NCBI RefSeq assembly: GCF_041261205.1
Contig: NZ_JBGCCH010000027.1
Location: 1-64,000, forward strand
DNA length: 64,000 nt
From: Catenulispora sp. MAP5-51
GTDB taxonomy: Bacteria > Actinomycetota > Actinomycetes > Streptomycetales > Catenulisporaceae
Reading direction: 5' to 3'
Shown here: piece after piece, positions 696 to 35,972 of the stretch
How positions within the stretch are numbered: position 1 is the stretch's first letter
Layout of the letters: every line of letters starts with the position of its first letter
Program-made: the position numbers and the translations under genes
The notes under the pieces: model-generated
The model's input: only the letters and a program-made list of their open reading frames with translations
Database searches by the model: none
Told to the model about the DNA's origin: nothing

Positions 696-704
696 CGTTG
701 CCTT

Positions 705-1803: not shown

Positions 1804-2021
1804 CGCGCCAGTCCAGCAGCCGTCCGAGCCGCAGTTGGCTCGAACCGTTCGGCGTCACCGGAACGCGCGACGACAAAAACATGGCGAACCAGCATGAACA
1901 GGTACGTCACAATCCCGGACTCAACCCAAGAACGAATTGGGCATAAACTAACTTTCAGCTCTCTCAAGCTCGCGGCCTAACACATCACAACGGGCAACAG
2001 AGTCCCACAGGGCTACGACTA

Positions 2022-2219: not shown

Positions 2220-2223
2220 TGCG

Positions 2224-15814: not shown

Positions 15815-16251
15815 CTAGTCGTACGCCGGGAACATGTCACCGAACAGTTTATCCCAATACTCGAACGCGACCTCCAGGTCGTTTTCCTTCACCGCGTCGT
15901 ATGCTTTCTTTGCGCGCTTAACAGCGGTATCTAGCTTCGAGAGGGCGACGATCTTGTTAGCGCTAGATGAACACGGCTGGATGCGGCCGGTTGTTCCCGT
16001 TGGGTCGTTCATGGCTGCGAGACTGCCAACTTGAAGGTCGGCGAGCAGGAAATATATGTCCATCCAGTAGAAGACGGATGATTGTTCGCGCGTATACTCG
16101 GCTGCCCGCATCTCCAGATAGAATGACGAGATTGGCACCTCACGGTAGTACTTCCACGCCTTAAGCAGCCGCGCAAGAGCTTTGGCGTTCCCCTGACCGG
16201 GCTCCGTGTTCGACCGGTTCACGTAGTCGAGGTGAGCCTGTGGCGTCGATT
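15815..16251 (-). pseudogene. C-terminal remnant of a cGAS/DncV-like nucleotidyltransferase (CBASS relic)
   Basis: The minus-strand frame runs from the IS edge at 16251 (TPQAHLDYVNRSNTEPGQGN) through LARLLKAWKYYREVPISSFY and AAMNDPTGTTGRIQPCSSSA to FEYWDKLFGDMFPAYD. This matches, from memory, the helical C-terminal half of bacterial CD-NTases that make cyclic oligonucleotide signals. The N-terminal half with the GS and D-x-D catalytic motifs is missing. No effector or Cap2/Cap3 gene is nearby. An ATG-like start at 16222 (GTG) would give 135 residues, but they could not be catalytic. Base composition is visibly lower in GC than the neighbours. Confidence 0.7.
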
Positions 16252-17482
16252 CCTGTAGGGCTCGGAAATACGAATCTGGGGTTGACCTGTGGTTCTCTGG
16301 TGCGGAGAGCGAGGTACGGTCAGGCGGCGATCTTGTACTCGTGGGTGAGTCCGCCGAGGATGGCCTTCCTGCGAATCCGGTAGTCCGCGAGGTTGACCGG
16401 CGCTGGCGGCCCGGTCTCGGCCTGGGCCGGGGTCACCTGGCCGAGGGCGCGGTGCGGCCTGGCCTCGTTCCGGTGGGCCAGGTAGGTAGTCAACGTTCGG
16501 CGCAGGTGCTCTTCGTTGATGATCAGCATCCGGTCGAGCAGCTCGCGGCGCAGCTCCCCGATGAGCCTTTCGCAGATCGAGTTCGATCGAGGGGCACGCG
16601 GCGGACTCTTCAGGATGCGGATTCCCTCGTCGGCGAACACCGCGTCGAAGCCGTCAATGAACTTGGTGTCGCGATCCCGGATCAGGAACTTGAACTTCTT
16701 TCCCCGCTCGGCCAGTTCCATCAGGACGTTGCGGGCGGCCTGGGTCGTCCACTCCCCCGTCGGGTTCGCGGTCACCCCGGCCAGGTGCGCACGGCGGGTC
16801 CCGTGCTCGATGAGGACCAGGGCGTACAGGCGTTTCAATCCGATCGTGTCCACATGCACGAAGTCAATCGCGAGGATGCCGTGGGCTTGCGTTGTAAGGA
16901 ACTGCTTCCACGTCGGACCCGAACGCCGCGGCGCCGGATCGACCCCGGCCGCATGCAGGATCTCCCACACCGTCGAGGCGGCGATCCGGTGGCCGAGCTT
17001 GACCAACTCGCCCTGGATCCGGCGGTGACCCCACATCGGGTTGTCCTTCGCCATCGTCAGCACGAGTTTCTTGACCGCCGCAGCCGTCGGCGGCCTGCCG
17101 GGTCTCCGCCGGGCGCTGTAGTCCCACTTGCGGGCAACCAGCCGGCGGTGCCAGGCCAGCAGTGTCGCCGGACTGACCGGGAACACCTGAGCCCATCGCC
17201 CACGCGGGATCAACGATGACAGCGCCGCGAACCAAAACCGGTCGGCCGACTCATAGCGGGCCCTGGCGATCTGACGACGCAGGACCGCATTCTCGTGGCG
17301 TAACACCAGCAGCTCAGCGTCCTTGGATACGTCACGACGGAACAAGACCGCCACGGAACCCAGGACACGACGCGTTGCACGGTACGCGAGAGACAGGAGC
17401 ATCGAGCCAGGATCGCAGCCCGACAATCGGAAGCCGCAAGTGCCCAGATCACAGGCGGAATCGTATTTCCGAGCCCTACAGG
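16252..17482 (-). mobile_element. IS with perfect 22-bp inverted ends
   Basis: The left end at 16252-16273 (CCTGTAGGGCTCGGAAATAC and onward) is the exact reverse complement of 17461-17482. The 1231-bp element holds one intact integrase-core transposase on the minus strand. Its left end cuts the CD-NTase reading frame. The flanks (GTCGATT and GACGTGC) show no target duplication, and the DNA beyond the right end does not restore the nucleotidyltransferase, so a deletion is likely. Confidence 0.85.
16320..17402 (-). CDS. Integrase-core (DDE) transposase
   Basis: 360 residues from ATG 17402 (a TTG at 17426 is also possible). Features are ELLVLRHENAVLRRQIARAR, WGHRRIQGELVKLGH, a catalytic Asp in ILAIDFVHVD, another in FLIRDRDTKF, and a Glu in SICERLIGELRREL, ending LGGLTHEYKIAA. 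It is intact and, with perfect terminal repeats, this is the copy most likely to be mobile. It belongs to the same group as the transposases at 2771 and 20352 but is clearly diverged from both. Confidence 0.9.
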   Translation of the reverse strand: MLLSLAYRATRRVLGSVAVLFRRDVSKDAELLVLRHENAVLRRQIARARYESADRFWFAALSSLIPRGRWAQVFPVSPATLLAWHRRLVARKWDYSARRRPGRPPTAAAVKKLVLTMAKDNPMWGHRRIQGELVKLGHRIAASTVWEILHAAGVDPAPRRSGPTWKQFLTTQAHGILAIDFVHVDTIGLKRLYALVLIEHGTRRAHLAGVTANPTGEWTTQAARNVLMELAERGKKFKFLIRDRDTKFIDGFDAVFADEGIRILKSPPRAPRSNSICERLIGELRRELLDRMLIINEEHLRRTLTTYLAHRNEARPHRALGQVTPAQAETGPPAPVNLADYRIRRKAILGGLTHEYKIAA

Positions 17483-19958: not shown

Positions 19959-20351
19959 GACGCACTCGAGACGCTGTCTCGCTGACTGGGCCGGGTCGAT
20001 CGCCTAGCCCGAGTTCTCCGTGTTGCTGGCGGTCCGTTCCCGGCGGCGGCTCGGATGTCAGAGGCGTTCGCGGTCCGGATGCTCGACGCGTTCGAGACGA
20101 GCGGTCCCCAGGTCCGTAGCCACGACGGCGTCAACGTCCTGGAGCTGTAGACAGCCATTCGAGAGCGACGCGACGGGGGCTGTTAAGAGTTTCTCTACTG
20201 ATTCAAGGGCACGCCTGGCGGCGTGCCTGCGCCTGCTGAATACCTCGTCCGCGCAGGTCAAGAGCGTATACAGGTTTGGTGCGGAGGCGATCGACCCAGC
20301 ATCGAACCTCGTGCTGTGGTCTTGGTCAAATCTCGGGCATGATGGCGGGTT
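19959..20351. other. Intergenic region before an IS
   Basis: I see no gene, RNA or clear repeat in this 390-base stretch. It should contain the left end of the IS whose transposase starts at 20352, but I could not match inverted ends. Confidence 0.4.
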
Positions 20352-21448
20352 GTGCTGTCGCGTCTGGCCTATCTCGCCGTCACCAACGCCTTCGCCGTGT
20401 TGCGGTTGCTGCCGTTGAGCGACCGGGACAAGGATGCGGAAATCTTGGCCCTGCGCCATCAGCTCGCGGTCCTGCAGCGGCAGCTAAGCTCGAACAGTGC
20501 CAGGTTCGCACCGAGGACCGAGCCTTCCTCGCTGCACTTCTCAAGCCCCTGCCCCGTGATTCACTACGCCGGCTGCATCTGATCGTCAGCCCGGACACGG
20601 TCCTGCGATGGCACCGCGATCTGATGCGCAGACGCCATGTGAACACCTGCCGGCCCCAGCGACCAGGACGCCCGCGAACGGTCGCCTCGATCCGGCGGCT
20701 GGTGCGGCGCCTGGTCCGGGAAAATCCGAATTGGGGCTATCGCCGCGTGCACGGCGAACTGGCCACGCTGGGCATCAAAGTCGCGGCCTCGACCGTCTGG
20801 GAGATCCTCAAGGACGAGGGCATCAACCCGGCACCCGAGCGCACCGCCACCACCTGGGCCGCGTTTCTGCGCAGCCACGCTGACGCGCTGCTGGCGTGCG
20901 ACTTCATCGAGACCATCACACGGACCGGACAGCGCCAGTACATCCTGGCCGTCATCGAGCACGCCACCCGGCGAGTCCGCGTGCTAGGCACCACCGCCCA
21001 CCCCACCGCCGCCTGGGTCGCTCAAGCGGCGCGGAACCTGGGCATGGACCTGGAAGAAGCCGGAGCCACAGTCAAGTACCTGGTCCGGGACCGGGACGCG
21101 AAGTTCCCGCCGCTGTTCGACGAGATCCTCGCACGGGCCGGCATCCAGGTCGTACTCAGCGGCATCCGCGTACCACGGATGAACTCGATCACGGAGCGGT
21201 GGGTGCAAACCTGCCGCCGCGAACTGCTGGACCGCACCTTGATCTGGAACCAGCGTCACCTGCTGCACGCCCCGCACGAGTACGAGACGCACCACAACAG
21301 ACACCGCGCTCACCAAGCAATACAGCAGGCCGCGCCGCTACGGGCAGTGCCCGCACCGATCACCGACCCACAGCACATCACCGACCTCGACATCCGTCGA
21401 CACGACCGACTCGGCGGCATCATCCACGAGTACCAACACGCGGCCTGA
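20352..21448 (+). pseudogene. Integrase-core transposase with a frameshift
   Basis: The N-terminus is read from GTG 20352 (LSRLAYLAVTNAFAVLRLLP, then AEILALRHQLAVLQRQL), and the rest lies in the -1 frame (QCQVRTEDRAFLAALLKPLP, then WGYRRVHGELATLGI, ACDFIET, LVRDRDAKF, SITERWVQTCRREL, ending IIHEYQHAA). The switch falls near 20480-20495. No A-rich slippery heptamer is visible there, so a mutation is more likely than programmed frameshifting. The catalytic D, D and E are all present in the second frame. Confidence 0.75.
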
Positions 21449-21529
21449 CCTGCCTGGACGACTTTATCGGCAGGCGCAGTGTTCCGAGTCCCGTCGGGAG
21501 CGAGCACGACAGTCAGCGAATATTTGCGC

Positions 21530-22255
21530 TCAAACGACGTGTTCAGACATCTTAAAGACTAATCCGCAGTTCCCGCACTCCACACTTCCAAAAAAGTTCT
21601 TGAGTTGCAACTGCACATCTACCCGTCTGTCAGAACGCGTACGCAAAAGAAGATGCGCCGCCATCCCGCTTAATGATGTCTCATGCGCGGCGATCAGCGG
21701 GGTTCGCCGTACATCAGAGTTTTCGAGATAGCCATAATCCAACGTTGAGAAATATCCAGAATCACCGAGGGAAACATAATTATATTGTCCGCAACGAGGG
21801 CACGTGGAGCGAAGTTCACTCCCACCAAGGTTTTCAACTCCATCAGTGTCAATGGCGAAACCTTGCAAGTATGTTAGGGCTACAAGGATTCCCACATACG
21901 ACGCTCTGTCGACCTCGGGGGACCTCAACGACAGATCTGCCAGATCACGCATTTCGGCGATCTCAGCCGCGTAATCCGCGAATGGATCGACGCCTCCGGG
22001 GCGATCCGGCCATGAAACAATGGATCCGGCGAGCGAGAGCGGCATGTACCGGTCAGCTGCAGGCCACGACCTCGCTATAGCAGCCAACGAAGGCAAGGCC
22101 GCATAGCTCGCCGAGTAGACCCCCCGTGCATCGCTAAGTCGCGCCCACAGATACGTCCAGGCACGACTTTCGGGGTTAGTCCCGGCTTCAATGAGGAGCT
22201 GAGGAATCTTATCGGCGGCCCCACTTGAATCCTTCAATTCCGACCATTCCACCAT
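21530..22255 (-). CDS. Zinc-ribbon protein, candidate immunity protein for the RHS toxin
   Basis: The start is taken at ATG 22255, behind GGAAGGG; ATG 22264 and 22273 are in frame upstream. The product is 241 residues. The N-terminal half is helical (YSASYAALPSLAAIARSWPA; DRYMPLSLAGSIV), like HEAT-type actinobacterial proteins near toxins. The C-terminal half carries CPRCG and CGNCG, a likely zinc ribbon. It starts about 30 bases after the RHS stop on the same strand, the classic place of the immunity gene. Its DNA is visibly more AT-rich than the RHS core, as is the toxin tip, suggesting that they moved together. Confidence 0.6.
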   Translation of the reverse strand: MVEWSELKDSSGAADKIPQLLIEAGTNPESRAWTYLWARLSDARGVYSASYAALPSLAAIARSWPAADRYMPLSLAGSIVSWPDRPGGVDPFADYAAEIAEMRDLADLSLRSPEVDRASYVGILVALTYLQGFAIDTDGVENLGGSELRSTCPRCGQYNYVSLGDSGYFSTLDYGYLENSDVRRTPLIAAHETSLSGMAAHLLLRTRSDRRVDVQLQLKNFFGSVECGNCGLVFKMSEHVV

Positions 22256-22285
22256 GTGCCGCATCCCTTCCATATGTGGTCCCGA

Positions 22286-25200
22286 TTAAGGCCCAAACCC
22301 GGCAAGATTGTTCTGAGCGATGGTTCCGAGCTGATAAATGTTCCGATAGTTGTGAACACCATCGCTGCCAGGGCCCACCCAGGCCATGTCACCGTATTGA
22401 TTGATGATAACCCTGAACCGATCTTCGTGACCAGGGAAGTCGTATACCCAAGCACCAGCCCACTTCCGCACCTGCGATGGGCCCATCCCGGAGCGCACGC
22501 CAATGCAGTCCAACGTCGGATCGTCCTCGCAGGGGGTTCCATAATTACCCACGGCACGGCGAGCCAGCGTTTTATTACGAATAGCGGCTTTTATCACGTT
22601 CGGAACTTGCGGAGTTCTCGATGACGTGCTGAACATCGTACCCAGATCGTTTGCCAAGCCGTTCGCGCCGCTGGACACCGTTGAGATCCCATAGCCGGTC
22701 GCAATGGCCCCACCGGCCATCACCGGAATACCCACTGGGGCTCCGGCTCCGGTATCGGTCACTCCGAAACCAGTGGCCATGAGTAGCGCTCCCCCCGTCG
22801 TGGCGCCTGCTCCACCCAACATCTGGAGTGCATCTCCCAGTGCGTCAAAAGCTGCACTGGGATCGAAGTTGAACGAATCGATACCGTCGACCTGAGCCTG
22901 CGATACTGGGCAATAACCTCCACGTGCCCCGCAACTTCTATGAATGGTTTTTGCATAGTACGCCTTCAGCAGGTCGGCGTATTCCTGAGAAATCTGCTTC
23001 GCGTCGTCAGGCGTCAAGGGCGCTGAATCATCCGACTGAGAGTCGCCGCCGGTATCCGAGGAATCATCCTGGCCCGATACGCACTCCTTCTTCGCGTAAC
23101 CGGACAGGCCAGCACACGGCCCTGATCCCCCCGAGGGTGCCGGCGTCTGCGATGTTGTCGGGGGAAGTCCATGGCAGGTGCCGGTATCAGCGTCGCAGAT
23201 CAGCCCGGTGGGGTCGCTGTTGTCAACAGGGTCGTTGCCGGCGTAGCTGTAGCCGCCGATCGCCTGGGGGCTGTTCGGCTGGAAAACGGGGTCGGCGGAG
23301 ATGAAACGTCCAGTGAGCGCATCGTATTTGCGGGCGCCGATGTCGACGAGGCCGGTGGAGGCGTCGGTGGTCTTGCCGAGGAAGGTGTGGTCGTCGGGCC
23401 ACGCGGGTGTGGTGGTTGGGGTGACCGGGGTGCCGCGACTGTCTCCGAAGGGCTTGTTGTACCGCCGCGCCTGGACCTGACCGGTGGCCGCGGAGATCGT
23501 GGTGGTGGCAGTGCTTTGGGGGTTGCTGACCTCGTAGGTGAGGGTGCCGGTCTGATCCGCGACGATGGTCGGCGCGCCGGGTGCGGCGTAATAGCGCTGG
23601 GCCGTGACCCTGCCCGAGGTGGTGCTGAGATGGATTTCGGTGCCGCCGAGGTACAGAGTGATGGTGCCGTTGGTGGAGCCCGTCGTGTAGTCCCGGCGGA
23701 TGAGCTGGTTGCCGTCCGCGTCGTAGACGTATGACGCCGTCGTGTTCGTCGTGGTGTTCGCGTCGGATGCCAGTCGGCCTTCGGGGTCCCACTTCAGGGT
23801 CTCGTTGGCGTTGCCCGCGCTGCCCTGCGTCGTGATCGTGCGGCCCGTGGTGTTGCCGGCGCCGTCGTAGGTGAAGGTGTCGGGTGTGCTGACGCCGGTC
23901 GCGGTCACGGAACTCAACAGGTGCGGACCGGTGCCGCCGGTGGTGGCCGATCCCGCCGTGTTGGTGCTGCCGGCTGCCGGGAAGCTGCTGGTGCGGGTGA
24001 CGTCCTTCGCGACGGTGCCGGTGATGTCGTGGTCGGTGACCGTCGAGCGGTTGCCGGTCACGGCGCCGTTGCCGAGGCCCACCGCGTTGGTGGCGTCGAA
24101 GCCGTACGACTGCCAATACGGTGCCGGGCTGGTCATGGCGCCGGTGGCGGTGCTCCCGCTGATCTGTCCCGAGGCCGCACTGGCGGCCGTGGGCGGGTTG
24201 TTGGTGGTGGAACTGGCGCAGGAGCCGATACCACCGGGCTTGGGACCGTTGTTGGGGATCGCCGGGTTGCCGGCGTTGACGCCGGTCGCCGCGGAGGGCG
24301 TCTGGTCTCCGGTGTCAGTCCAGCTGTTGGTGAGGCGGCCGGCGTAGTCATAGGTGAAGCACTGGTTGTCGCGCGCGTAGATCGGCTGGTAGGTGCCCAG
24401 CGCGTTGTAGTTCTGCAGGTCGGCGACGGAGGTGACCTGGCCTGCCGCGTCGTAGGTGTAGGTGGAGTAGTCGACGCCGTAGGTGTTCAGAGCGTTGGTG
24501 TTGCCGTTCTGGCCGGCGGAGGCGTCAACGAAGCTGTTGGTGAGCCGACCGGTGCCCGCGTCGTACAGGTTCTGCTGTACCACCTGATAGGGATAGTCGC
24601 CCAGGGTGCGGGAAGCGATGCGGCCGAGTTGGTCGTAGGTAGTGGCGAAGACATAGTCGGCGTTGCCGCCGGTGGCCAGGAGCAGGCCGTTGTCGTTGTA
24701 CGAGTTGTACACGGTCTCCAGCGGCATGCCGGAGTTCGGTACGGCGGGCAGGTCGGTGTGGTCCAGCCGCCCGGTGACCGACGTGTAGTAGTTGTTGGTC
24801 TGGTACGTGGTGGCCAGGGCGCCGTTGTTGTCGGCGGGCGGGATGGTCGCCGAGGCACCGAGGGCACGGCCGCCGGCGTCGTAGCCGGTAACGGCGCTGG
24901 TGTATTGGGTGGTGCCGTTGTCCATGTACCGGATGGAGGAGGCCGGAAGGCCGTAGTCGGTCTTTCCGTCGGAGCCTGGCACGGAGTCGTAGGACCAGGA
25001 CGCCATCAGTGCCGAGGCGGCGGGGGTGCCCGCGGAGGTGTAGGGCGCGTTGTATTCGGCCGTTTTGCGGTTCAAGACGTCGTAGTAGTACGACAGGGTC
25101 TGGCCGCGGCCGTCTTGAGTCTGCACCAGCAGGCCGGCGTTGTCTTCGATGGTGGTGCTGGTCCCGGTGTCCGGGTCCTTCTGGGTCACGCTGTGCCCGA

Positions 25201-28200
25201 GCAGGTCGTTCGTGGTTGAGGTCCACACGTTTGACTTGGTGCCGTCGGTCACCGTGGAGACGGTGCCGTTGTTCACGTATTGGAAGTCGTATTTGGTGAT
25301 GTCGGCGTCGCCCACGTTGCCGGTCGGCGCCGGCGGGTTGTTGTGGTATGTCCACAGCGCTGAAGTGCGGCCGCGGGCGTCGGTGAACGTCGACGTGGCG
25401 CCCGCGGAGGCGGTGCCGTTACCGGACGGGGATGTGACGTCGGTGCGGTCCACACCTGGGTAGGCGGTGGTGGTCACGGCACCGGGTATCACCGCCGAGG
25501 TCGGGGAGCCGCCGCCGACAGGGGCGGCGTTCGTGTACTGCGTCACCGTAAGCGTCCGGGAAAGTCCGTCGTAGGTGGTGACCTGCTGCGAGGGAAGTGC
25601 GTCGCCGTAGCTCCGGAAAGTGCCCGAGGGAGCGTCGACGTTGTCCCAGTGCGCGGCAGCGGTGCGCCACGGCTTGCCCAGGCTGTTGAACTCGGCCTGG
25701 GTGGAGATCAGGCCGGAGGAATCGTCCGCCGGAGTGGCCTGGGTCTCGATCTGCTCGCCGAACGCGTCCAGGATTACGTCGGACTCGGCGTAGGTGTCGT
25801 TCTCCCGCAGTGTCCGCGTCTGCACGTAAGGGTTGGTGGCCGCGACGCTCGGCGACAGGGTCGTCCCGAACACCCCGTAGGTGTAGGTGGTGTCCGGCGT
25901 GGAGGCGTTGGCCGCCTTCGGATGGTCGGGGTTCCACACCTGCGTGGCCCGGCCCAACCCGTCGTAGACGGCGTCGGCCTGGCGACCGTTGATGTCCACG
26001 GCGGTCTCGGTCACCTGGCGACCCAGGTCCACAATGGCGGTCGAGGTCCACCCCTTGGCGTTGGTCGTGGTGATCGACGTCGGCAATAGCCCAGGCTTGG
26101 AGACGAACCCAGTTCGGGTGGTGTGCTGGTCCGCGTCCTTGGTCGACGTCAGTCTGCCGTAGCCGTCGTAACCCATGGTCGCGGTGGTGACCAAGGAGCC
26201 GCCGGCGGTCGGGTAGGCCAGGGTGGACGTCACCGACCCGGCCGTGACCCCCGGGAACGTCTGGCCGTCATACACCGTCTCGGTGTCCGAAGTCGTGGTG
26301 GCGTTGGTTTCCGATGTGGTAGTGCAACTACCCCCGGCCGGAACGGTGGAGGTGATGACCTCGTCCGAGTAGGCGCTCCACTCGTAGCCGTCGACACCTG
26401 CGGCAGTATTGATCGCGTACCGGTTGAACGTACACAGCTCCTGCACGTTGCCCAGCGCTTTGCCGTTGGCGTCCGTGTCGCCCTTGTCGTCGGTGGTCAG
26501 CAGTCTGCCGTTGCCCCCGGTACCGCCGGCACTGGTGAACACCGGCAGGGAGTTGTCGTAGGTGTAATCGACCTCGGTACGGCGCAGACCACCTGTGGAT
26601 AGCGGGGCGTAACTGATCTTCTTGGCGATGTGCGAGAAGTGCGCGCGTTGCAGCGGTAAGGGTGAGACCCGGGCGTGTGTCGCGGTCACCATGCCCGGAT
26701 CATTCGGGTCTTCAGGAACGCTGATGCTGTCGCTGACGACAGTGCTGGAGTTCTCCGATGCGAAGACCTGTGTCTCCAACGCCTGCCCGGCCAAAGCGTT
26801 GTCGTCGCGGTAACCGAACCCGTTGGTGTTGGTGCAGGCGGCGTTCGCCGGCCCCTGCTTCTGCGAGTCGTTCAAACACACCGGCTTGGTCGGGTCCTGG
26901 TCCATACCTTGGAAGTACGTGGTGGTGCTGGAGGAGTTGGCGCCGGTGGACTCGCCGGACGTCGTAGTTGTGACCTGGCGGAAGCCCCGGTACTGGTCGG
27001 CAATGCGGGGGGCGGATGGGTCAACCTGCTCGGAGTCGTTGGTGTGCCACGCTGGCGTGCCCACGTAGGTGTAGGCAGTGGAGTGCGTCTTGGAGTACCC
27101 GTAGTTGGTGTTGATGGTCGTGCCGTCCACCACCGATACCGAGGTCACCACGTACTTGAAGAACCAGTCGGTGTGCTTGTTCCCGTTGGAGTCCGTGTAG
27201 TTCTCGGGGTAGCACAGGGTGGCATTAGCGATTGTGGTCGGCGGCGCAGTCGAACCGCAGCTCAACGTCCCGGGCATATCGTAATTCACGGTGGTGATGG
27301 CGCCGAGCTCATCAGTGATCTGATCCAACCGGAAACGGTCGAACTGTGATGTGGTCCACGGCGTGAGCGCCGTATCGCGGTTCGGCTTTGTGTTGTCGTA
27401 TCCGAGATTGACCGCCGGCGCTGTCGTGGAAGCCACCGTACCGTCGGAATTGGTCAGGTACCCAGTGTGGACGATGGAGTCCAACCGCAGCTGCGCCGAG
27501 TTACCGGAAGTCCCAGGGTCCAGCGGGATCGGGAATGACTGGTTGAACGTATATGTATCCACCGCCCGGAAGTTCACCGGGGTGCCAGACGGCTGAGAAC
27601 CCGTCGACGCACCGCTATTGACGGCAGTGGTGATTCCGGCCAAGCGAACGGTGGAGAAGAAGGCTGGCGAACCCACCGCGCACGTGGTGCTCCCGCTCTT
27701 ACAGTGCTGATCCCATGGCACATCCGTGAACGCACCGGAGTTGGTATCCGTGATCCCGGTGGTCGCAGTACCGACGGAGACCGTCGGCGGCGTCGTGGGG
27801 CAGGCGTTGTCTGTTGAGGAATACACGCAGCGTGGCATGTAGTCGAACAGCACCGTCGAAGCGGGCGCCGGCCCGGTGTTGGTGCCGTCGGCCAACGCGC
27901 CGGCCGCCTTGTCGACGTTGCCGGTCTGCCAGCCGTAGTCGATCTCCCGCAAGAAGCCCCCACCGGTGTATTCGGTGGTGGAGCCGTTGTGCATGTAGTA
28001 GTCCTCTTCCCGCGCATACGTGTAACGAGTCACGTTGTTGTGCGGGTCGATGACGAAGTCCAGGTTCCAGCGCCAGCCCTGGCGGCACGACGAGGCCTGC
28101 TCGCTGCCTGTCGGATCATTGCAGCTGGTGCCGACGCCGGTCCCGAACACCGGCGTTGACCAGGTCGAGTACGTGGGGGCGTCCGACATGCCGTCGCCGC

Positions 28201-29659
28201 CGTAGTTCTGCGGCAGCCGGTTGGCACCGTACAAGTAGACGGTGCCGTCGGTCGCCGTGAGCTTCCAGTACCCGTTGTTGACGGTGTTGTTCCCGCCAAG
28301 CGCGCCGGTCATGAACTGCACGCGCGTCCCGTCGTCCACCGCGAGGCGCCACTTGGAGTTGTCGCTGTCGTCGCGGACCAGGCCGCCCGCGTGCGCGCCG
28401 CCGGAGATCGCGGCGTTCGCCGTTCCCTGACACAGGTCGCCGACGGTCGCCCAGGCCGAATTGACCGTCGCGCACGGCATGTACGTCGTCTCGATGTACG
28501 AGGAGGCGCCGCCGCCCAGGTCGAACCCTTCGCCGACCACCGAGGTCTGGCCGTTCGACACGGTGGTCCGGCCGTCGACCGACCCCGAGTCGTACGCCAG
28601 CGACACCCCGGGGGCGCCGTTGCCCAGCGACGGCGGAGTAGACACCGGATAGGACCATTCGAAAGACCCGGAGTTCCCCGAGGTGGTCCAGGAGTCGCTG
28701 GACTTCAACGAGGACGCCGTGAAAGTACCGCCAGCGGGACCAGTCGCTGTGGACGTCGCCGCGAGCACCATCGTGCTGGCGGCGGCCTTGGACGTCGCCG
28801 CGTCGGCCGACGATTGCGAGATGCCGGTCGAGGAGGCGCCGTGCTGTCCCGGGATCGTCACCGTGGCGACCAGTCGCTGGTGGTCGTGGTCGTTGACGGT
28901 GGTCACCGGTGTCTGCACCCGGCATTTCGGAACCGTCGGCGTGGTCAGCGCACAAGCCGGCAGCTGCACCAAGTGCAGACGGTCGCTGAAGTCCGCCCCG
29001 AACGCACCGGCCCACGCGCCGTAGGACACCGCGACATCGGCCGTGCCGGGCGTCTTGACGGTGTCGGGCTGGGCGACGGTCACGATGACGCCGGACACCC
29101 CAGCCGCGACCGCCTGTGCGTGCGAGGCGACGGTCGCCTGCACCGACGACGGAACCGGCGTGGCTGCTTTGGTGCTGGTGCTGGTCAGGGCAGAGCGATC
29201 GGCCGGAGCAGCGGCGGCGACCAGCGTCCCGGCCGGAGCCACGGTCACCGGCGAAGACGTTTCCGGCGCGGCCGCGAGCATCGCCCGGTTCTTCACGGCG
29301 GAGGAGGCGGAGGCGTTCACGTCTGCGGCGAACTGCTCGGCTGCCGGCCAGGTCGGCAGGTGGACCGCTGGGGACGCGGAAGTGTGAGTTTGACCCGCGG
29401 TGTGCGCTACAGCCGGAGAAGCCGCGGTGGGATCCAAACCTTTGACCTCACGAGGCGTCCACACTTTTCCAGGATGCGGACGGCCCCCATGCTTCTGTGC
29501 CGAAGAAGCCAATGCAACAGTCGCCGTCGCGGGGCTCACCGCCGCCGCACCGAGCGTCAAAGAAAGAAGAATCGCAGCCCAGCGGGCACCGCGATACCGG
29601 GAAGTCCCAGTCCGCGAATTCCGCCCACGTCCCGCACCCGGAGCACGCCGAATTACCAT
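22286..29659 (-). CDS. Secreted RHS-repeat polymorphic toxin
   Basis: The start is ATG 29659 with GAGGG upstream; the open frame extends further to 29791. About 2457 residues. A basic region and signal peptide (RWAAILLSLTLGAAAVSPAT) are followed by a long secreted N-terminus, then many YD/RHS repeats (for example YDGYGRLTSTKDADQHTTRT and YDAAGQVTSVADLQNYNALG) and the core end YDALTGRFISADPVFQPNSP, then YSYAGNDPVDNSDPTGL. The last about 304 residues are the variable tip: a hydrophobic Gly/Ala-rich stretch (MLGGAGATTGGALLMATGFG), then a final domain of about 105 residues (IKAAIRNKTLARRAVGNYGT; WVYDFPGHEDRFRVIINQYG; VHNYRNIYQL). The tip resembles RNase-type toxins only loosely. The next gene is a candidate immunity gene. 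Confidence 0.9.
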   Translation of the reverse strand: MVIRRAPGAGRGRNSRTGTSRYRGARWAAILLSLTLGAAAVSPATATVALASSAQKHGGRPHPGKVWTPREVKGLDPTAASPAVAHTAGQTHTSASPAVHLPTWPAAEQFAADVNASASSAVKNRAMLAAAPETSSPVTVAPAGTLVAAAAPADRSALTSTSTKAATPVPSSVQATVASHAQAVAAGVSGVIVTVAQPDTVKTPGTADVAVSYGAWAGAFGADFSDRLHLVQLPACALTTPTVPKCRVQTPVTTVNDHDHQRLVATVTIPGQHGASSTGISQSSADAATSKAAASTMVLAATSTATGPAGGTFTASSLKSSDSWTTSGNSGSFEWSYPVSTPPSLGNGAPGVSLAYDSGSVDGRTTVSNGQTSVVGEGFDLGGGASSYIETTYMPCATVNSAWATVGDLCQGTANAAISGGAHAGGLVRDDSDNSKWRLAVDDGTRVQFMTGALGGNNTVNNGYWKLTATDGTVYLYGANRLPQNYGGDGMSDAPTYSTWSTPVFGTGVGTSCNDPTGSEQASSCRQGWRWNLDFVIDPHNNVTRYTYAREEDYYMHNGSTTEYTGGGFLREIDYGWQTGNVDKAAGALADGTNTGPAPASTVLFDYMPRCVYSSTDNACPTTPPTVSVGTATTGITDTNSGAFTDVPWDQHCKSGSTTCAVGSPAFFSTVRLAGITTAVNSGASTGSQPSGTPVNFRAVDTYTFNQSFPIPLDPGTSGNSAQLRLDSIVHTGYLTNSDGTVASTTAPAVNLGYDNTKPNRDTALTPWTTSQFDRFRLDQITDELGAITTVNYDMPGTLSCGSTAPPTTIANATLCYPENYTDSNGNKHTDWFFKYVVTSVSVVDGTTINTNYGYSKTHSTAYTYVGTPAWHTNDSEQVDPSAPRIADQYRGFRQVTTTTSGESTGANSSSTTTYFQGMDQDPTKPVCLNDSQKQGPANAACTNTNGFGYRDDNALAGQALETQVFASENSSTVVSDSISVPEDPNDPGMVTATHARVSPLPLQRAHFSHIAKKISYAPLSTGGLRRTEVDYTYDNSLPVFTSAGGTGGNGRLLTTDDKGDTDANGKALGNVQELCTFNRYAINTAAGVDGYEWSAYSDEVITSTVPAGGSCTTTSETNATTTSDTETVYDGQTFPGVTAGSVTSTLAYPTAGGSLVTTATMGYDGYGRLTSTKDADQHTTRTGFVSKPGLLPTSITTTNAKGWTSTAIVDLGRQVTETAVDINGRQADAVYDGLGRATQVWNPDHPKAANASTPDTTYTYGVFGTTLSPSVAATNPYVQTRTLRENDTYAESDVILDAFGEQIETQATPADDSSGLISTQAEFNSLGKPWRTAAAHWDNVDAPSGTFRSYGDALPSQQVTTYDGLSRTLTVTQYTNAAPVGGGSPTSAVIPGAVTTTAYPGVDRTDVTSPSGNGTASAGATSTFTDARGRTSALWTYHNNPPAPTGNVGDADITKYDFQYVNNGTVSTVTDGTKSNVWTSTTNDLLGHSVTQKDPDTGTSTTIEDNAGLLVQTQDGRGQTLSYYYDVLNRKTAEYNAPYTSAGTPAASALMASWSYDSVPGSDGKTDYGLPASSIRYMDNGTTQYTSAVTGYDAGGRALGASATIPPADNNGALATTYQTNNYYTSVTGRLDHTDLPAVPNSGMPLETVYNSYNDNGLLLATGGNADYVFATTYDQLGRIASRTLGDYPYQVVQQNLYDAGTGRLTNSFVDASAGQNGNTNALNTYGVDYSTYTYDAAGQVTSVADLQNYNALGTYQPIYARDNQCFTYDYAGRLTNSWTDTGDQTPSAATGVNAGNPAIPNNGPKPGGIGSCASSTTNNPPTAASAASGQISGSTATGAMTSPAPYWQSYGFDATNAVGLGNGAVTGNRSTVTDHDITGTVAKDVTRTSSFPAAGSTNTAGSATTGGTGPHLLSSVTATGVSTPDTFTYDGAGNTTGRTITTQGSAGNANETLKWDPEGRLASDANTTTNTTASYVYDADGNQLIRRDYTTGSTNGTITLYLGGTEIHLSTTSGRVTAQRYYAAPGAPTIVADQTGTLTYEVSNPQSTATTTISAATGQVQARRYNKPFGDSRGTPVTPTTTPAWPDDHTFLGKTTDASTGLVDIGARKYDALTGRFISADPVFQPNSPQAIGGYSYAGNDPVDNSDPTGLICDADTGTCHGLPPTTSQTPAPSGGSGPCAGLSGYAKKECVSGQDDSSDTGGDSQSDDSAPLTPDDAKQISQEYADLLKAYYAKTIHRSCGARGGYCPVSQAQVDGIDSFNFDPSAAFDALGDALQMLGGAGATTGGALLMATGFGVTDTGAGAPVGIPVMAGGAIATGYGISTVSSGANGLANDLGTMFSTSSRTPQVPNVIKAAIRNKTLARRAVGNYGTPCEDDPTLDCIGVRSGMGPSQVRKWAGAWVYDFPGHEDRFRVIINQYGDMAWVGPGSDGVHNYRNIYQLGTIAQNNLAGFGP

Positions 29660-29936
29660 GCCACCCTCAACGAAGCAAACGAGAAGAGAACACACCGACA
29701 AGACGCCGATGCGGCACAGCCCCACCACGAGGCGCAGAAACCAGAACCCCCCGGCTCCAGAACCCCGGTCGCTTAATCGGTTGTTGATCACTCGACCGAT
29801 CCGTCAGCATGCCGCAGAACCTTGACCGACGCAAGTGTTCGATCGAGTACTGATCCGAGCATTGCCGAGGTCTTGTGGTTCCGTTATGTTCACCGGGCTG
29901 ATCATCAACGCACTGTGGAACAAACTGGAGGACCCA
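29660..29936. promoter_or_regulatory. Divergent promoter region between the RHS toxin and the lectin protein
   Basis: About 277 bases separate the starts of two giant secreted proteins. It should hold promoters for both. I see no clear palindromic operator. GGAGG at about 29926-29930 is the ribosome binding site for GTG 29937. Confidence 0.45.
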
Positions 29937-32900
29937 GTGGGGGGCAAACCACGTGGTCGCCTATGGCGACTGGCGTCTATAGGGATGGCGGCCAGCCTTT
30001 GCCTGGCCGTGTCATCCGGCACCTTCGCCGTTGCCGGGACCGCAGCCGCGCCCGGCGCCGGCGGTCTCGTGCAGACCCACGACCCGAAGGACCCGAATAA
30101 GCCTTCGGGACCGGCAGACACCTCCAAGCCAGGCGCCAAGACGACGGCGCCCGCGTTGAGCTCGATGAGCTCTCAGACGACACCGGACCCTGCGAAACTG
30201 GCCATCGCCGACGCCATCGCGACCGCGAAGAAGACTCACAAGTCGGTCCCGATCCCCGCGGCGACGACCGCCTACGCCACCATGGTCGCCAACCCCGACG
30301 GCACGGTCAGCGCCAACAGCCACGTCAACCCGCAGCGTGCGAAGGTCGGCGGGCAGTGGGAGCCGATCGACACCACGCTGGCGGTGGGGTCCGACGGCCA
30401 GCTACACAGCAAGGCCACCGTCACCGCGATCACCCTGTCCGACGGCGGCAGCGCGCCGCTGGCGGTCACCGACGACGGAGCCGGCCACGTCCTCACCCTG
30501 ACCTGGCCCGGCACCCTCCCGAAACCGACGGTGTCCGGCGCCGTCGCCACCTACCACGCTGTGTACCCCGGCGTAGACCTCCAAGTCACCGCATCCGCCA
30601 CCGGCATCACCCACCTGCTGGTCGTCCACGACGCCGCCGCAGCCGCCAACCCGGCGCTGTCCAGCGTCCAGATCGGCGAGACCGGCACCGGAGTGCAGAT
30701 CTCGGCGACCCCCGCCGGCGGCGTCCAGGCCGTCGCCGCAGACGGGACCAAGGTCTTCACCGGCCAGGAACCGCACATGTGGGACTCGGCCGGCAAGGCG
30801 AGCCCGCCGTCCGGCTCCTCGAAGGCCGCCGCGCCCGCGATCGCGGACAGCGGGCCGCACACCGCCGCGCTCCCCGCGCACGTGGCCAACGGCAAGATCA
30901 CCCTGCAGCCGGACCCGAACCTGCTGCGCGGCGCCTCCACCATCTACCCGGTCTACATCGACCCGGCGTGGGTGGAGAACCCGCAGAACTGGGTCGAGAT
31001 GGACTCCGCGAACCAGAAGGTCTGGGACGGCCAGGCGCCCTATCCGTGGGGGACGCAGAGCCAGCCCTACGACAACAGCATCGTCCGAGTCGGCAACAGC
31101 GGCGGCACCGTGTTCCGCTCCCTGCTGCAGTTCAATGCCGACATCCTCGCGCCCAACAACTACACCAACTTCCTGATAGTCAGTGACGCCTGGCTATACC
31201 TGACCTTCCAGGGCAGCTGCGTCACGACCGACGTGTGGGCCACCGACCGTTTCGACTCCGGCATCAACTGGGGCAACCAAGACTCCGGAGGCGCCACGGG
31301 GTACAGCGTGTGGAGCGGCGGCCACGTCATCGGGACCAACAACTGCTCGGCCAACCCGTGGAACCCCATCACCATCAACGACGCGAGCCAGGTCCAGCAG
31401 GTCTTCGCCAACCACGGGCACACCTTCAGCGTCGGCCTGCGGGCCCACAACGAGGCCGCCGGCGGCGGCTACGGCGGCATCCAGGTCCTCAACAATGGCC
31501 TTATCTACGACGCCAACATCACCGTCAAGTTCGTCGCAGAGCCCTGGTTCGAGAATGTGGGCACCACCGGCGTGGCCGCTCCCGTCGGAAACCACGGTGC
31601 GACCCAGCAGATCTGCGGCAACGACATGACCACCGCCGGCTATCTGCCGATGGTCTCGGGCCCCGCCACCTTCACCGCCGGCCTGGCCGACTGGGACGCC
31701 GAAAAGATCGACTACCACTTCTGGCTCAACGATTTCACCAGTCAGAGCGGGACCCAGGACGGAGGATCAGGGAGCGTCACAGCCATACCGTATTCACAAT
31801 CACAAACACCCGGCAGCCCCGGCACCGGCGGTGCGACGACCCCGCTGACTGGCTCCTTCCCCACCACAACCTCGACAGTCACCTGGTTCGGCGGCATGAC
31901 GGGCACCAGGCAAAGCGTGACCGGTATCCGAGACGGCGACCTGTATCAGATGTTCGTGCAGGCCCAGGATGATGATCCCACCGTCGACACGGCCTTCAAC
32001 AACGCCAGAGGAGCCAGCGGCAACAACCTGGAATACCCGTACATCCAGTGCTACTTCCACGCCGCGTTGTCCGCCCCGCTTCAGCCGGACTTCCCGACCA
32101 ATGCCGGGACCACGTTCGTCAGCAGCGGAACCCACCTCACCGGCAACTACCCGGTCGTCGGCGACGGCGGCAACATCATCGTCCACTCCAGCGCCCCGCA
32201 CACGCCCATCGCCCGGTTCGACTGGGCCCTGAATACCTCCTCCACCAACGCCGGCGCCTACAACTGCGGCGGCGTCATCAACGCCGCGTGCGGCTCGGTG
32301 GCAGCCAACAACGCCCTGGACAGCACCTCCACCATCACCATCGGCAACGGCCCCAACACCCAGACCCTGGGAACCGGTGAGCACTGGGGCAACAACTACG
32401 TGTACGTCTCAGCGGTCGATGTCGCCGGCAACGTCTCGGCGGCAGCGCGCTTCGACTTCTTCCTGGGCGAGCCATTCCAGCCGGTCTCCTTCGGAAACGT
32501 CACCGGCGACGGCACCCCCAACCTGATGAAGGCCGACACCTCCGGGAACCTGGACATCTATCCGGCGAACCAGGACATGGACCCCAACGCCGCCGACGCC
32601 GTCGAGGTGGCGCCCGCCGCTGCCGCGCCCAACGGCACGTCGTGGAAGAACGCGCTGTACACCCACCGCGGCGCCGAACGCGTCCAGCCCACCGACGACC
32701 TGTTCGCGTGGGACATCGGCTCGGACAACATCGGCCATCTCTACTACTACTTCAACGCCCAGACGGCCTCGGCCAGCACTCAGCCCGGCTACGTACCACC
32801 GGCCCGCCTGGACACATTCACACAAACCCAGCGGAGCCTGATCACCAGACCGACCTGCACCCCGTCGGCGACCAACGGGTGGTGCGTCGGCTACAACCAG

Positions 32901-35900
32901 AGCAACTGGAACGACGTCAAGAAGATCCTGGCCGTCGGACCGGTCCTGGGCGGCTGCAACATCAAGGCGCCCACGACCGCCTGCAAGACCAACCTGATCA
33001 CGATCGAGACCGACGGGCACAGCCCGGCACGGATGTGGATGTTCTCCCCCGCCGGCATCGGCCAGCTGCGCAACCCCGTCCTGCTCTCCACCTCCACCCC
33101 CGCCTCGGCCGCCGGCCCAGGCTGGGACTGGGCGACCGTGCGCTTCCTGATGGCCCCCGGCAACGCCGCCGGACACCCGGCCCCGACCGGTGCACCCGCT
33201 GCTGGCGGCATGCCGGACCTGTGGGCCGTCGACTCGACCGGCACCCTCTACCAGTTCACCAACCACTCAGACACCGCCCTGGCCGGCGCCGGCCTCGGCG
33301 ACCTGAACGCCAAGACGCAGTTGGGCACTACCGGGCAGTTCAACAACTACGACTGGGTCAGCACCGCCGGGGACCTGAACGGCGACGGCAACCCCGACCT
33401 GTGGGTCGTTAACGGCGGCCGAATGGACGTCCTGTTCGGCCCCATCGGCGCCAACATCACCGACCAGAACACCAAACCGATGAGCGGCACCGGCACCAAG
33501 CCCACCCAAGCCCAGAGCACCGCCACCACCGCCGACTGGACCTCCAACGCCGCCACCCTCCAGGGTGATGTCGTCGGCGGCGGTCTGGCCGGACAGGTGC
33601 GTCTGCCCGGCGTCGTCGGCAGCACCGCCCCCGGTCAGAAGTGCCTCGACGACCTCAACGGCAGCCTGGCCGACAGCACTACCGTCATCGACATCTACGA
33701 CTGCAACGGCACCATGGCACAACAATGGACCTTCGCCCCCGACGGCACGATCCGCTATCTGGGCTCCGACCCGACCGACCCGAAGTGCCTAGACACCAAT
33801 AACGGCCTCATCCAAGGGCAACTGGTCACCTTGTTCAGCTGCCAGCCGAAAAGGAACCAGATCTGGCGGACCATCCCGTCGCCATCCACCCCCGGGACGT
33901 ACTGGATCTACAACCCCACCTCCGGAATGTGCCTGGACGACAGCAACGGGAATAGCAGCAACCACAACCCCTTCTGGCTCTGGCCCTGCATCGACAGCAT
34001 CGCCCAGCGCTACCAGCTGCCCAAGGCCGCCGGGGCGATGCAACAGGTCGAGGCGGAGTCCCTGTGGGGCAGCCAGAGCGGTGCCACCCCCACCCCGCAA
34101 GCAAACTGCTGCGGCATCAGCCTGTCTAACGGCTACCAGAGCTACTTCCCCGCCACCGCGGCCGGCGCTTCCATCACCTACAACTGGTATGTGCCCGTGA
34201 CCGGCACCTACATCGTCGAGCCCTCGCTGACCAAGACCAACGACCGAGGCCAGTACACACTGACAGTCGACAGCACCAAGCTGCCCACGACCTTCGACGG
34301 GTATCAGGCGTCGGGTGTCTCCCTGGCCACCGTCCCGTTCGGGAAGATCTCCCTTTCTGCGGGCATGCACAACTTCATCTTCACCGCGGCAGGCACGAAC
34401 GCCGCCAGCATCGGTAACCGCTACGTGCTCGGCGTCGATACCCTGGCACTCGCGCCCACCACGACAACCGGCCCCACTGCCGCGCTGAAGGTCTCCAGCC
34501 CGGGAATCGTCAACCAGCCGGTGACCGCCGACGCCTCGGCATCGTTCCCTGGCACGGCGGGGATCACCGGCTACACCTTCGACTTCGGTGACGGCACGGT
34601 GGTCGGCCCGCAAGCCGGCCCGACTGCGCAACACGCCTACACCGCCGCCGGCACCTTCCAGGTGAAGGTCAGCGCCACCGACGTCAACAACGCAAGCTCC
34701 ACTTCTTCCACGACCGCGGTCGTCATCCTCAGCGGCCCGCCGGTCATCAACGGGGACTTCGAGTCCGGGAGCCTGGCCGGCTGGCCCGCGTCCTACAACT
34801 CTGGCGTCACCACTACGAACCCGCACAGCGGCACCTACGCCGGGCAGATCAACGCACCAACCGGCGGCAACGGATCCATCGAACAAGTCGTGAGTGGGCT
34901 GACACCCAATACCGGCTACACGCTCACAGGCTGGGTCCGCACCGACGGCGGCACCACCATCTTGGGCACCAAGTTCTACGACGCCGACCCCAACGACGAC
35001 ACCGGCGACACCACCACCGCCACCACCTGGACCCAACTCAGCAGCCAATTCACCACCGGACCCACCAACACCACCGTCGACATCTACTGCTACCGACCCA
35101 CCGCAGGCACCTCAGCCTGCGACGACTTCACCCTGCTGGCCAACCCCGCAGCGGGCGCCGTAGGCAACCCCGACTTCGAAACCGGGAACCTCGCCGGCTG
35201 GAACGCCGCCAACAACGCAGGCATCACCACCACCAACCCCCACTCCGGCACCTACGCCGGACAAATCAACGCACCCACCGGCGGCAACGGGACCATCGAA
35301 CAAGTCGTCACCGGACTAATCCCCAACACCGCCTACACACTCACCGGCTGGATCCGCACCGACGGCGGCACCACCACATTGGGCGCCAAACAATTCGATC
35401 CCGCAGGCGACAAGCAAGAAGCCACCACCACCAACACCGGCTGGACCCAGCTCACCGACCAGTTCACCACCGGAGTGAACAACACCACCGTCGACATCTA
35501 CTGCAACCGAGCCACAGCAGGCACCTCCGCCTGCGACGACTTCACACTGACCCCCACCCCGGCAACCGTGCCCAACCACGACTTCGAATCCGGGAACCTG
35601 GCCGGCTGGACCGCCTCCTACAACGCAGGCGTCACCACCACCAACACCCACACCGGCACCTACGCCGGACAAATCAACGCACCCACCGGCGGCAACGGAT
35701 CCATCGAGCAAGTTGTCACCGGCCTGACACCCAACACCACCTACACCCTCACCGGCTGGGTCCGCACCGACGGCGGCGCCACCATCTTGGGCACCAAGTT
35801 CTTCGACGCCGATCCCGACGACGACACCGGCAACTCCACCACCGCCACCGGCTGGACCCAACTCACCAGCCAATTCACCACCGGACCCACCAACACCACC

Positions 35901-35972
35901 GTCGACATCTACTGCTACCGATCCACAGCAGGCACCTCAGCCTGCGACGACTTCACACTGACCGCCAACTAG
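29937..35972 (+). CDS. Giant secreted multidomain protein (DNRLRE, FG-GAP, ricin-type lectin, PKD, CBM-like repeats)
   Basis: The start is GTG 29937 after GGAGG. About 2011 residues. A signal peptide (LASIGMAASLCLAVSSGTFA) leads into a region with YPVYIDPAWVENPQNW and VGNSGGTVFRSLLQFN, typical of DNRLRE domains found with RHS proteins. FG-GAP-like units follow (GNVTGDGTPNLMKADTSGNL; GDLNGDGNPDLWVVNGG), then a ricin-B-like lectin with CLDD...QQW and CLDT...QIW repeats, a CBM6-like segment, a PKD domain (YTFDFGDGTVV, HAYTAAGTFQVKVSATD) and three repeats of about 133 residues. No peptidase or hydrolase motif is visible. It is divergent from the RHS toxin and probably acts at the cell surface, perhaps in attachment. 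Confidence 0.8.
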   Translation: MGGKPRGRLWRLASIGMAASLCLAVSSGTFAVAGTAAAPGAGGLVQTHDPKDPNKPSGPADTSKPGAKTTAPALSSMSSQTTPDPAKLAIADAIATAKKTHKSVPIPAATTAYATMVANPDGTVSANSHVNPQRAKVGGQWEPIDTTLAVGSDGQLHSKATVTAITLSDGGSAPLAVTDDGAGHVLTLTWPGTLPKPTVSGAVATYHAVYPGVDLQVTASATGITHLLVVHDAAAAANPALSSVQIGETGTGVQISATPAGGVQAVAADGTKVFTGQEPHMWDSAGKASPPSGSSKAAAPAIADSGPHTAALPAHVANGKITLQPDPNLLRGASTIYPVYIDPAWVENPQNWVEMDSANQKVWDGQAPYPWGTQSQPYDNSIVRVGNSGGTVFRSLLQFNADILAPNNYTNFLIVSDAWLYLTFQGSCVTTDVWATDRFDSGINWGNQDSGGATGYSVWSGGHVIGTNNCSANPWNPITINDASQVQQVFANHGHTFSVGLRAHNEAAGGGYGGIQVLNNGLIYDANITVKFVAEPWFENVGTTGVAAPVGNHGATQQICGNDMTTAGYLPMVSGPATFTAGLADWDAEKIDYHFWLNDFTSQSGTQDGGSGSVTAIPYSQSQTPGSPGTGGATTPLTGSFPTTTSTVTWFGGMTGTRQSVTGIRDGDLYQMFVQAQDDDPTVDTAFNNARGASGNNLEYPYIQCYFHAALSAPLQPDFPTNAGTTFVSSGTHLTGNYPVVGDGGNIIVHSSAPHTPIARFDWALNTSSTNAGAYNCGGVINAACGSVAANNALDSTSTITIGNGPNTQTLGTGEHWGNNYVYVSAVDVAGNVSAAARFDFFLGEPFQPVSFGNVTGDGTPNLMKADTSGNLDIYPANQDMDPNAADAVEVAPAAAAPNGTSWKNALYTHRGAERVQPTDDLFAWDIGSDNIGHLYYYFNAQTASASTQPGYVPPARLDTFTQTQRSLITRPTCTPSATNGWCVGYNQSNWNDVKKILAVGPVLGGCNIKAPTTACKTNLITIETDGHSPARMWMFSPAGIGQLRNPVLLSTSTPASAAGPGWDWATVRFLMAPGNAAGHPAPTGAPAAGGMPDLWAVDSTGTLYQFTNHSDTALAGAGLGDLNAKTQLGTTGQFNNYDWVSTAGDLNGDGNPDLWVVNGGRMDVLFGPIGANITDQNTKPMSGTGTKPTQAQSTATTADWTSNAATLQGDVVGGGLAGQVRLPGVVGSTAPGQKCLDDLNGSLADSTTVIDIYDCNGTMAQQWTFAPDGTIRYLGSDPTDPKCLDTNNGLIQGQLVTLFSCQPKRNQIWRTIPSPSTPGTYWIYNPTSGMCLDDSNGNSSNHNPFWLWPCIDSIAQRYQLPKAAGAMQQVEAESLWGSQSGATPTPQANCCGISLSNGYQSYFPATAAGASITYNWYVPVTGTYIVEPSLTKTNDRGQYTLTVDSTKLPTTFDGYQASGVSLATVPFGKISLSAGMHNFIFTAAGTNAASIGNRYVLGVDTLALAPTTTTGPTAALKVSSPGIVNQPVTADASASFPGTAGITGYTFDFGDGTVVGPQAGPTAQHAYTAAGTFQVKVSATDVNNASSTSSTTAVVILSGPPVINGDFESGSLAGWPASYNSGVTTTNPHSGTYAGQINAPTGGNGSIEQVVSGLTPNTGYTLTGWVRTDGGTTILGTKFYDADPNDDTGDTTTATTWTQLSSQFTTGPTNTTVDIYCYRPTAGTSACDDFTLLANPAAGAVGNPDFETGNLAGWNAANNAGITTTNPHSGTYAGQINAPTGGNGTIEQVVTGLIPNTAYTLTGWIRTDGGTTTLGAKQFDPAGDKQEATTTNTGWTQLTDQFTTGVNNTTVDIYCNRATAGTSACDDFTLTPTPATVPNHDFESGNLAGWTASYNAGVTTTNTHTGTYAGQINAPTGGNGSIEQVVTGLTPNTTYTLTGWVRTDGGATILGTKFFDADPDDDTGNSTTATGWTQLTSQFTTGPTNTTVDIYCYRSTAGTSACDDFTLTAN
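34743..35969 (+). repeat. Three tandem coding repeats of about 400 bp
   Basis: Units begin near 34743, 35160 and 35569, each encoding NGDFESG-type starts, then TYAGQINAPTGGNG, YTLTGW(V/I)RTDGG and TVDIYC...GTSACDDFTL. Units 1 and 3 are almost identical over long DNA stretches; unit 2 has a shorter middle. This indicates recent duplication or gene conversion. Confidence 0.85.

Follow-up and report, generated by a model that had tools for sequence, protein, structure and literature searches.

Gram-positive Rhs toxins of the WapA type are secreted proteins that carry a variable C-terminal toxin and are followed by an adjacent immunity gene. As a system, the combination of a rearrangement hotspot (RHS) toxin, an exchangeable tip and an immunity gene is known. 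The present study concerns a locus of this kind in a stretch of 64,000 nucleotides from Catenulispora sp. MAP5-51 (contig NZ_JBGCCH010000027.1, positions 1 to 64,000; hereafter the window), which belongs to a genome of 10.9 Mb in 87 contigs. Its RHS gene ends in a tip that we read as a divergent ribonuclease (RNase), and a gene encoding a putative immunity protein, predicted to fold as a helical solenoid and probably to carry a zinc ribbon, lies directly behind it.

Two sets of published findings bear on such a pair. According to the survey of Zhang et al. 2012 (PMC3482391), barstar is specific to barnase-like toxins, yet the table there also places barstar beside Ntox21, a tRNase of the BECR fold. 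In the part of the work on the toxin Tde5 that deals with its inhibitors (PMC13392607), Tde5 is blocked by the HEAT-like protein Tdi5a and by Tdi5b, unrelated immunity proteins from different hosts; relatives of Tdi5b are rarely found near toxins, and the authors think that Tdi5b was co-opted.

We consider it probable that the window locus encodes a secreted RHS toxin with a replaced RNase tip and, adjoining it, a solenoid/zinc-ribbon immunity protein. Tip replacement, the tip family, the predicted fold, gene order and the sequence features below were all obtained by computation. The features on which the argument turns are these:

22286-29791, minus strand: RHS polymorphic-toxin gene, 2,501 codons from a GTG (a later ATG near codon 45 is a possible start)
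22616-23200, minus strand: first section of the variable end, a polar linker and then a Gly/Ala-rich hydrophobic stretch (about 22640-22864), from translation and composition
22289-22615, minus strand: toxin domain of 109 residues, predicted RNase of the BECR fold, RNase Sa-like, from model, profile and barstar beside relatives
21530-22255, minus strand: neighbour gene, proposed immunity protein of 241 residues from codon 7 (open reading frame (ORF) 21530-22273, 247 codons), helical solenoid and probable zinc ribbon
21791-21802, minus strand: first CxxC of the neighbour, C158/C161 in 247-residue numbering, invariant in 21 of 21 sequences
21566-21577, minus strand: second CxxC of the neighbour, C233/C236 in the same numbering, invariant in 21 of 21 sequences

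The toxin tip and its relatives

The final domain of the RHS protein, which a preliminary description had found unassignable, can now be assigned as a predicted divergent RNase. Structure prediction of the last 110 or so residues gave a confident AlphaFold model (predicted local distance difference test score (pLDDT) 85.7, predicted template-modelling score 0.79), in which helices at residues 8-16 and 48-54 precede strands at 58-61, 70-73, 79-84 and 90-97. In a comparison covering 870 aligned chains, RNase Sa or Sa2 took all of the first eight rows (each a separate entry, Z 4.4-4.0), with 71-78 residues aligned at a root-mean-square deviation of 3.1-3.6. Below them stood unrelated rows at Z 3.4-3.1, RNase T1 at 2.9 and lower, and, at 2.8, 1tfk, an entry titled E. 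coli ribonuclease with inhibitor protein that we take to be the tRNase colicin D. Such Z values are suggestive but low and would not suffice alone for the tip. The tip profile was, however, also collinear over 71 columns with a profile of 15 Streptomyces RNases of family PF00545; its score of 21.7 exceeded those of all 200 column-shuffled profiles, which averaged 10.0 and peaked at 19.7, and the reversed profile scored 10.5. Because structural rank, a profile score that no shuffle attained and barstar genes beside three relatives (see below) point the same way, we read the tip as a divergent BECR-fold RNase that would be RNase Sa-like in action while standing outside PF00545.

In RNase Sa, catalysis involves a Glu, an Arg and a His. 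Two of these have possible equivalents in the tip, numbered here along the 111-residue model sequence:

22352-22354, minus strand: conserved His, H90, invariant in 8 of 8 tips and kept in the distant relative P0005
22412-22414, minus strand: conserved Arg, R70, invariant in 8 of 8 tips, Lys in P0005

H90 aligns with the invariant His of the DHY motif of Streptomyces RNases and is a candidate general acid; R70 is a candidate phosphate-binding residue. No Glu in the window tip corresponds to that of the RNase motif HEYT, so that of the three residues that mark PF00545 the His and an Arg occur at matching places and the catalytic Glu is missing. For this reason the tip is not filed as a member of that family, for which it also lacks a profile match above the curated cut-off. 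The missing Glu is one of several results that weigh against an RNase. Z values of about 4 for RNase Sa and Sa2 are low; Foldseek returned nothing better than E 1.3 for the tip (with an RNase Sa2 chain ranked first); none of the eight tips matched a Pfam family at E up to 10; and the hhalign probability for the tip against the RNase profile was 8.8%.

The missing Glu also feeds the rival that survives best, namely that the tip has an RNase-like fold but is a different BECR nuclease, such as a tRNase with a different set of catalytic residues, or has no catalytic activity. The row 1tfk fits this idea. So do the statement, in the survey's treatment of the fold, that each BECR clade has its own active-site residues (PMC3482391), the barstar listed there beside Ntox21, and the description of YxiD as a metal-dependent BECR tRNase in another paper (PMC12700104). 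We regard this as a serious contender that is nonetheless unlikely, since RNases Sa and Sa2 fill the first eight structural rows and, as regards a dead domain, the six residues invariant in an alignment of eight tips that includes the window's (R22, W54, R70, G77, H90 and Y92) are intact in the window copy.

The family defined by the last 110 or so residues is rare. With the window tip as query, one convincing genome besides the host was found among 394 genomes of the class (L023/L032, 1.6e-7); the L032 tip led to five further convincing loci in 295 Streptomyces genomes (L043-L047), and a profile of seven tips to one locus in another family (L052, 4.2e-15, in the 394 genomes). The eight relatives comprise seven clear ones and a distant one, P0005, which is the end of another RHS gene, L199, in the source genome. 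Against the tip profile P0005 scored E 0.0084, directly after the window tip (the best of its own 2,000 shuffles reached 1.5), and its hhalign score with the tips was 31.1 versus a maximum of 21.8 in 100 shuffles. Every relative forms the end of a large protein, and in several of these proteins RHS or HINT-like parts can be recognised; here and below, HINT and transposase labels were given by eye unless they come from a record's annotation. A scan of genome contigs (A3, 200 stretches) gave only the already known Streptomyces netropsis locus, plasmid searches with three tips and a PADLOC run found nothing, and sequence searches of the PDB yielded chance-level rows or none. Weak matches at L024-L028 (E 0.0045-0.0084) and L048 (3.1e-4) were dropped, L024 because its frame overlaps another long ORF and L025 and L048 because they are not toxin-end-like; small matches at L037 (55 residues, 0.006) and L039 (32 residues, 0.002) were discounted, their frames being unlikely or unrelated.

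The genes adjoining these relatives are of two kinds. In three cases they bear barstar (PF01337): the gene after the L045 tip (2.7e-15), that after the L052 tip (1e-5) and that following P0005 in the source genome (44.2 bits). The last locus, L199 (G000:C2:563000-571500), with its RHS ORF at 54-3827 and barstar match at 4379-4627, offers a within-genome comparison for the window pair. In the other five (L043, L032, L044, L046 and L047) the tip is followed by a member of a family that we call A8, unnamed acidic proteins of 189-201 residues with the motifs WDIMG and RPEFxMxSLDG. None of the five has a Pfam match above cut-off, and A8 is likely to be a new immunity family for RNase tips.

Replacement of the tip

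The RHS protein matches TIGR03696 (Rhs_assc_core) at residues 2127-2197 with 55.8 bits (cut-off 32.5), so that an RHS repeat-associated core precedes the variable end. The preliminary description had reported a change of composition after the motif DPTGL, and a double-CxxC protein encoded next door; both are there. Exactly 304 residues follow DPTGL (22289-23200, minus strand), where about 304 had been stated, and the peptides quoted from this part, like the Gly/Ala-rich hydrophobic stretch, occur in the translation. The location given (21530-23180) was also right, save that its upper bound falls 20 bases short of the switch at 23200.

Tip and neighbour had been called more AT-rich than the core, and GC and codon analysis agrees. 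GC content and GC content at third codon positions (GC3) are 0.664 and 0.858 in the RHS core, 0.586 and 0.610 in the 304-residue tip, 0.555 and 0.591 in its last 109 residues, and 0.544 and 0.556 in the neighbour gene. Since pieces of the core (912 bases, in steps of about 150 bases) never fell below a GC3 of 0.743, the drop in the tip lies outside the core's range. The linker and Gly/Ala section share it (GC3 0.62 versus 0.86 in the core). The Gly/Ala-rich stretch, possibly a membrane-crossing or pre-toxin segment, belongs to a section weakly similar to what precedes the L032 tip (37% over 62 residues, E about 0.4); an NheB (NCBIfam) match on it, at 18.6 bits against a cut-off of 500, was attributed to composition.

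The proposed exchangeability of the tip held up in a survey of the genus. Eight of ten genomes, the host included, contain 38 RHS core matches, five of them in the host. We compared 36 regions, the remaining two matches being the window itself and a fragment adjoining a compared region. In these 36 the window toxin domain had no tblastn match under E 0.1, and its linker had a single short one (46 residues, E 0.009, in L088). When the 32 tips long enough for comparison (four regions lack a usable tip) were run by blastp together with the window's, none paired with the window tip at 1e-3. Many of the regions have in common a middle segment, HINT-like by eye, and differ in their ends: a conserved core thus carries differing tips in relatives. 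Composition and survey both speak against the idea that the RHS end is normal divergent core, which was rejected. An exception in the genus is a set of orthologous RHS genes in three genomes, one of them the host (L112, L113 and L114), whose tips are 82-92% identical and which have no clear immunity gene behind them in the ORF lists; these RHS proteins seem not to be polymorphic.

The neighbour as a candidate immunity protein

The neighbour lies on the same strand as the RHS gene. From its most likely start at codon 7 (22255), which is preceded by GGAAGGG and coincides with the start of most relatives, it has the 241 residues first reported for it and begins 30 bases past the stop codon of the RHS gene, as against 12 bases if the longer ORF is taken. 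In its model (pLDDT 91.0), a helical solenoid is joined by strands that surround the Cys pairs, probably a zinc ribbon; the double CxxC noted earlier is invariant in all 21 aligned family sequences, the window's included. Structural comparison ranked a designed binder first (Z 8.5), followed by CAND1, Uso1, COPI and MMS19 (8.4-8.2), a level common for helical repeats, and no Pfam HEAT match was found. Barstar (PF01337) is absent from its Pfam matches at E 1. Kinship with barstar or A8 was rejected on the basis of hhalign, which gave a probability of 0.6% over 16 columns against two of the barstar-bearing genes and of 0.4% over 16 columns against A8. A DNA-binding role deduced from the zinc ribbon alone was also rejected, as zinc-ribbon rows are only weak and the bulk of the protein is solenoid; row 5t87_B (Z 6.2), a chain of a contact-dependent inhibition complex, was set aside because helical matches at such a level are common.

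The neighbour is 41% identical to a plasmid-encoded protein of Streptomyces goshikiensis and 42% to L133. Among ten genomes of the genus (two under 85% complete), a full-length copy was found only in the source genome, and its terminal branch measures 1.11 versus 0.02-0.58 for the 20 other family members. In Streptomyces, the family occupies 66 places spanning at least 200 of 238 positions, in 57 of 246 genomes, one place holding a stop codon; this count is our own, rests on 11 candidates scored per genome and leaves out rows that cover only about the first 110 positions, which belong to larger frames. The neighbour's own first 110 or so residues resemble the start of larger proteins, mostly of about 700 residues. 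One of these, a 758-residue protein without a Pfam match, is in the source genome (L184, 1454-3727, plus strand), and partial matches like it recur in the genus and in Streptomyces. A scan of genome contigs with the neighbour protein (60 stretches) gave none that was confirmed.

From its position, composition, strain-specific presence and long branch, the neighbour is best read as a borrowed, specialised immunity protein. We adopted the model of a co-opted inhibitor, for which Tde5 and Tdi5b provide a close published parallel. Several observations weigh against it. No relative of the tip, among eight, adjoins a neighbour-type gene, one 29-residue match near them (E 0.04) being taken as chance. 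Conversely, 54 loci with neighbour-family members (44 distinct places) contain no convincing tip of the window family, as judged from ORF lists (one restricted to ORFs that passed a filter on codon composition), a small number of plasmid stretches with annotation, and tblastn runs in which tips, the RHS core and immunity genes served as queries, a search by which a different toxin type could be missed. A single one of the 54, L137, has a piece of RHS core; it is truncated and on the opposite strand, and L137 is for that reason no second case of the gene order. Most Streptomyces members of the family are free-standing, and several adjoin transposases. The best Foldseek match of the neighbour, at E 1.1, is not a confident one. 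Acidity offers no argument for immunity, because the neighbour (isoelectric point 4.8, net charge -9) is the least acidic of the 21 members (the others range from -11 to -25) and a slight acidity is also found in three of the eight tips. Weak support for a link between this family and RNase immunity comes from one locus, L143, where a free-standing member (636-1412, plus strand) converges on a barstar gene (1501-2190, minus strand; PF01337, 6.9e-17) about 90 bases away; the match of a barstar-bearing query there (0.008) is a real Barstar gene.

One could also envision that the tip is an RNase and that the neighbour is a mobile Streptomyces solenoid/zinc-ribbon gene placed there by chance, the true immunity gene being elsewhere or having been lost, for example at the following element:

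20227-21479, plus strand: insertion sequence (element type judged by eye) with a transposase-like ORF at 20276-21448 and 34-nucleotide imperfect inverted repeats at 20227-20260 and 21446-21479, 79% complementary

It ends 50 bases beyond the neighbour's stop codon and marks the end of the cassette. That proximity, together with the free-standing habit of the family and the lack of such a gene beside any tip relative, speaks for a chance neighbour, and two barstar genes elsewhere in the source genome could supply immunity. One of these two, however, belongs to an RHS toxin of its own (L199), and a search of the genome at E 1, run without a positive control, gave no A8-type gene. The common strand, the 30-base spacing and the ribosome-binding site point to co-expression, the neighbour resembles the tip and not the RHS core in composition, and the only full-length copy found in the genus sits exactly behind the window tip. 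We think a chance neighbour unlikely. Least probable is that the tip is no RNase and resembles one only because its helices and four-stranded sheet happen to be similarly arranged, which the low Z (4.4), the lack of a Foldseek match under E 1 and the lack of a Pfam match would allow and the agreement of three independent lines (structural rank, profile score, barstar beside three relatives) makes very unlikely.

We infer secretion and delivery, RNase activity, binding and protection as follows. The RHS protein would be a secreted polymorphic toxin whose shell ends at DPTGL, the 304 residues beyond being a replaced cassette of linker, hydrophobic Gly/Ala stretch and C-terminal toxin domain. Once released, this domain would enter a neighbouring cell and cut RNA by means of the conserved His and Arg. 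The neighbour gene would have come along with the cassette, and its product would most likely bind the toxin domain, block the active site and so protect the producer and its kin.

Other features of the surroundings may be mentioned. A second transposase-like ORF, identified by eye (16320-17426, minus strand), and an adjoining short ORF (15815-16222, minus strand) suggest repeated insertions to the left of the toxin cassette. On the far side, a secreted-looking ORF of 2,045 residues with repeated C-terminal segments (29835-35972, plus strand) diverges from the RHS gene, the listed starts of the two lying 43 bases apart.

Known systems and the present pair

As far as found in the open-licence literature, the assignment of the tip family and its pairing with a solenoid/zinc-ribbon neighbour are new. 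If the preferred reading is true, a tip that had no family name can be tested as an RNase, and the neighbours of a single small tip family are of three unrelated types, namely barstar, the unnamed A8 family and a solenoid with a zinc ribbon. Nature would then offer a clear example in which the immunity protein changes and the toxin fold persists. A first function would also be suggested for a family of which 57 of 246 Streptomyces genomes have nearly full-length copies. More tentatively, and with the odds somewhat against us, we might suppose that this Streptomyces family is a source of RNase inhibitors, of which one member was captured to serve a rare family of barnase-like tips as a third immunity type, structurally unrelated to barstar and A8; many of its free-standing relatives, one of them beside a free-standing barstar gene, may then be orphan immunity genes directed against the RNase tips of rivals.

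With toxins of the WapA type the locus would share a secreted RHS protein, a variable C-terminal toxin and an adjacent immunity gene. RNase Sa, RNase Sa2 and barnase (PF00545) resemble the tip model in the succession of a helix and a four-stranded sheet and in a His and an Arg at corresponding places; the tip differs in having neither a Pfam match nor a counterpart of the catalytic Glu, and the window domain is the tip of an RHS protein whose adjoining gene is not barstar. The Tox-Barnase/Imm-Barstar pairs, as set out in the relevant passages of Zhang et al. 2012 (PMC3482391), combine, as the window locus appears to, an RHS carrier, a BECR-fold tip and an immunity gene directly downstream, and three relatives of the window tip do adjoin barstar. 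In contrast, the window neighbour is a predicted solenoid with a zinc ribbon and lacks profile similarity to two barstar-bearing genes. Imm-HEAT is an immunity protein of all-helical HEAT repeats for which the same survey lists Actinobacteria (PMC3482391); its entry there, compared by description only, pairs it with Tox-REase-7 and does not mention a zinc ribbon. A close published parallel is Tde5 with the HEAT-like Tdi5a and with Tdi5b (PMC13392607). Tde5 differs in being a DNase and in its delivery, which in Pseudomonas proceeds by type VI secretion. A nuclease toxin, unrelated immunity proteins in different hosts and an immunity family of which most members lie away from toxin loci are traits that the Catenulispora case appears to share.

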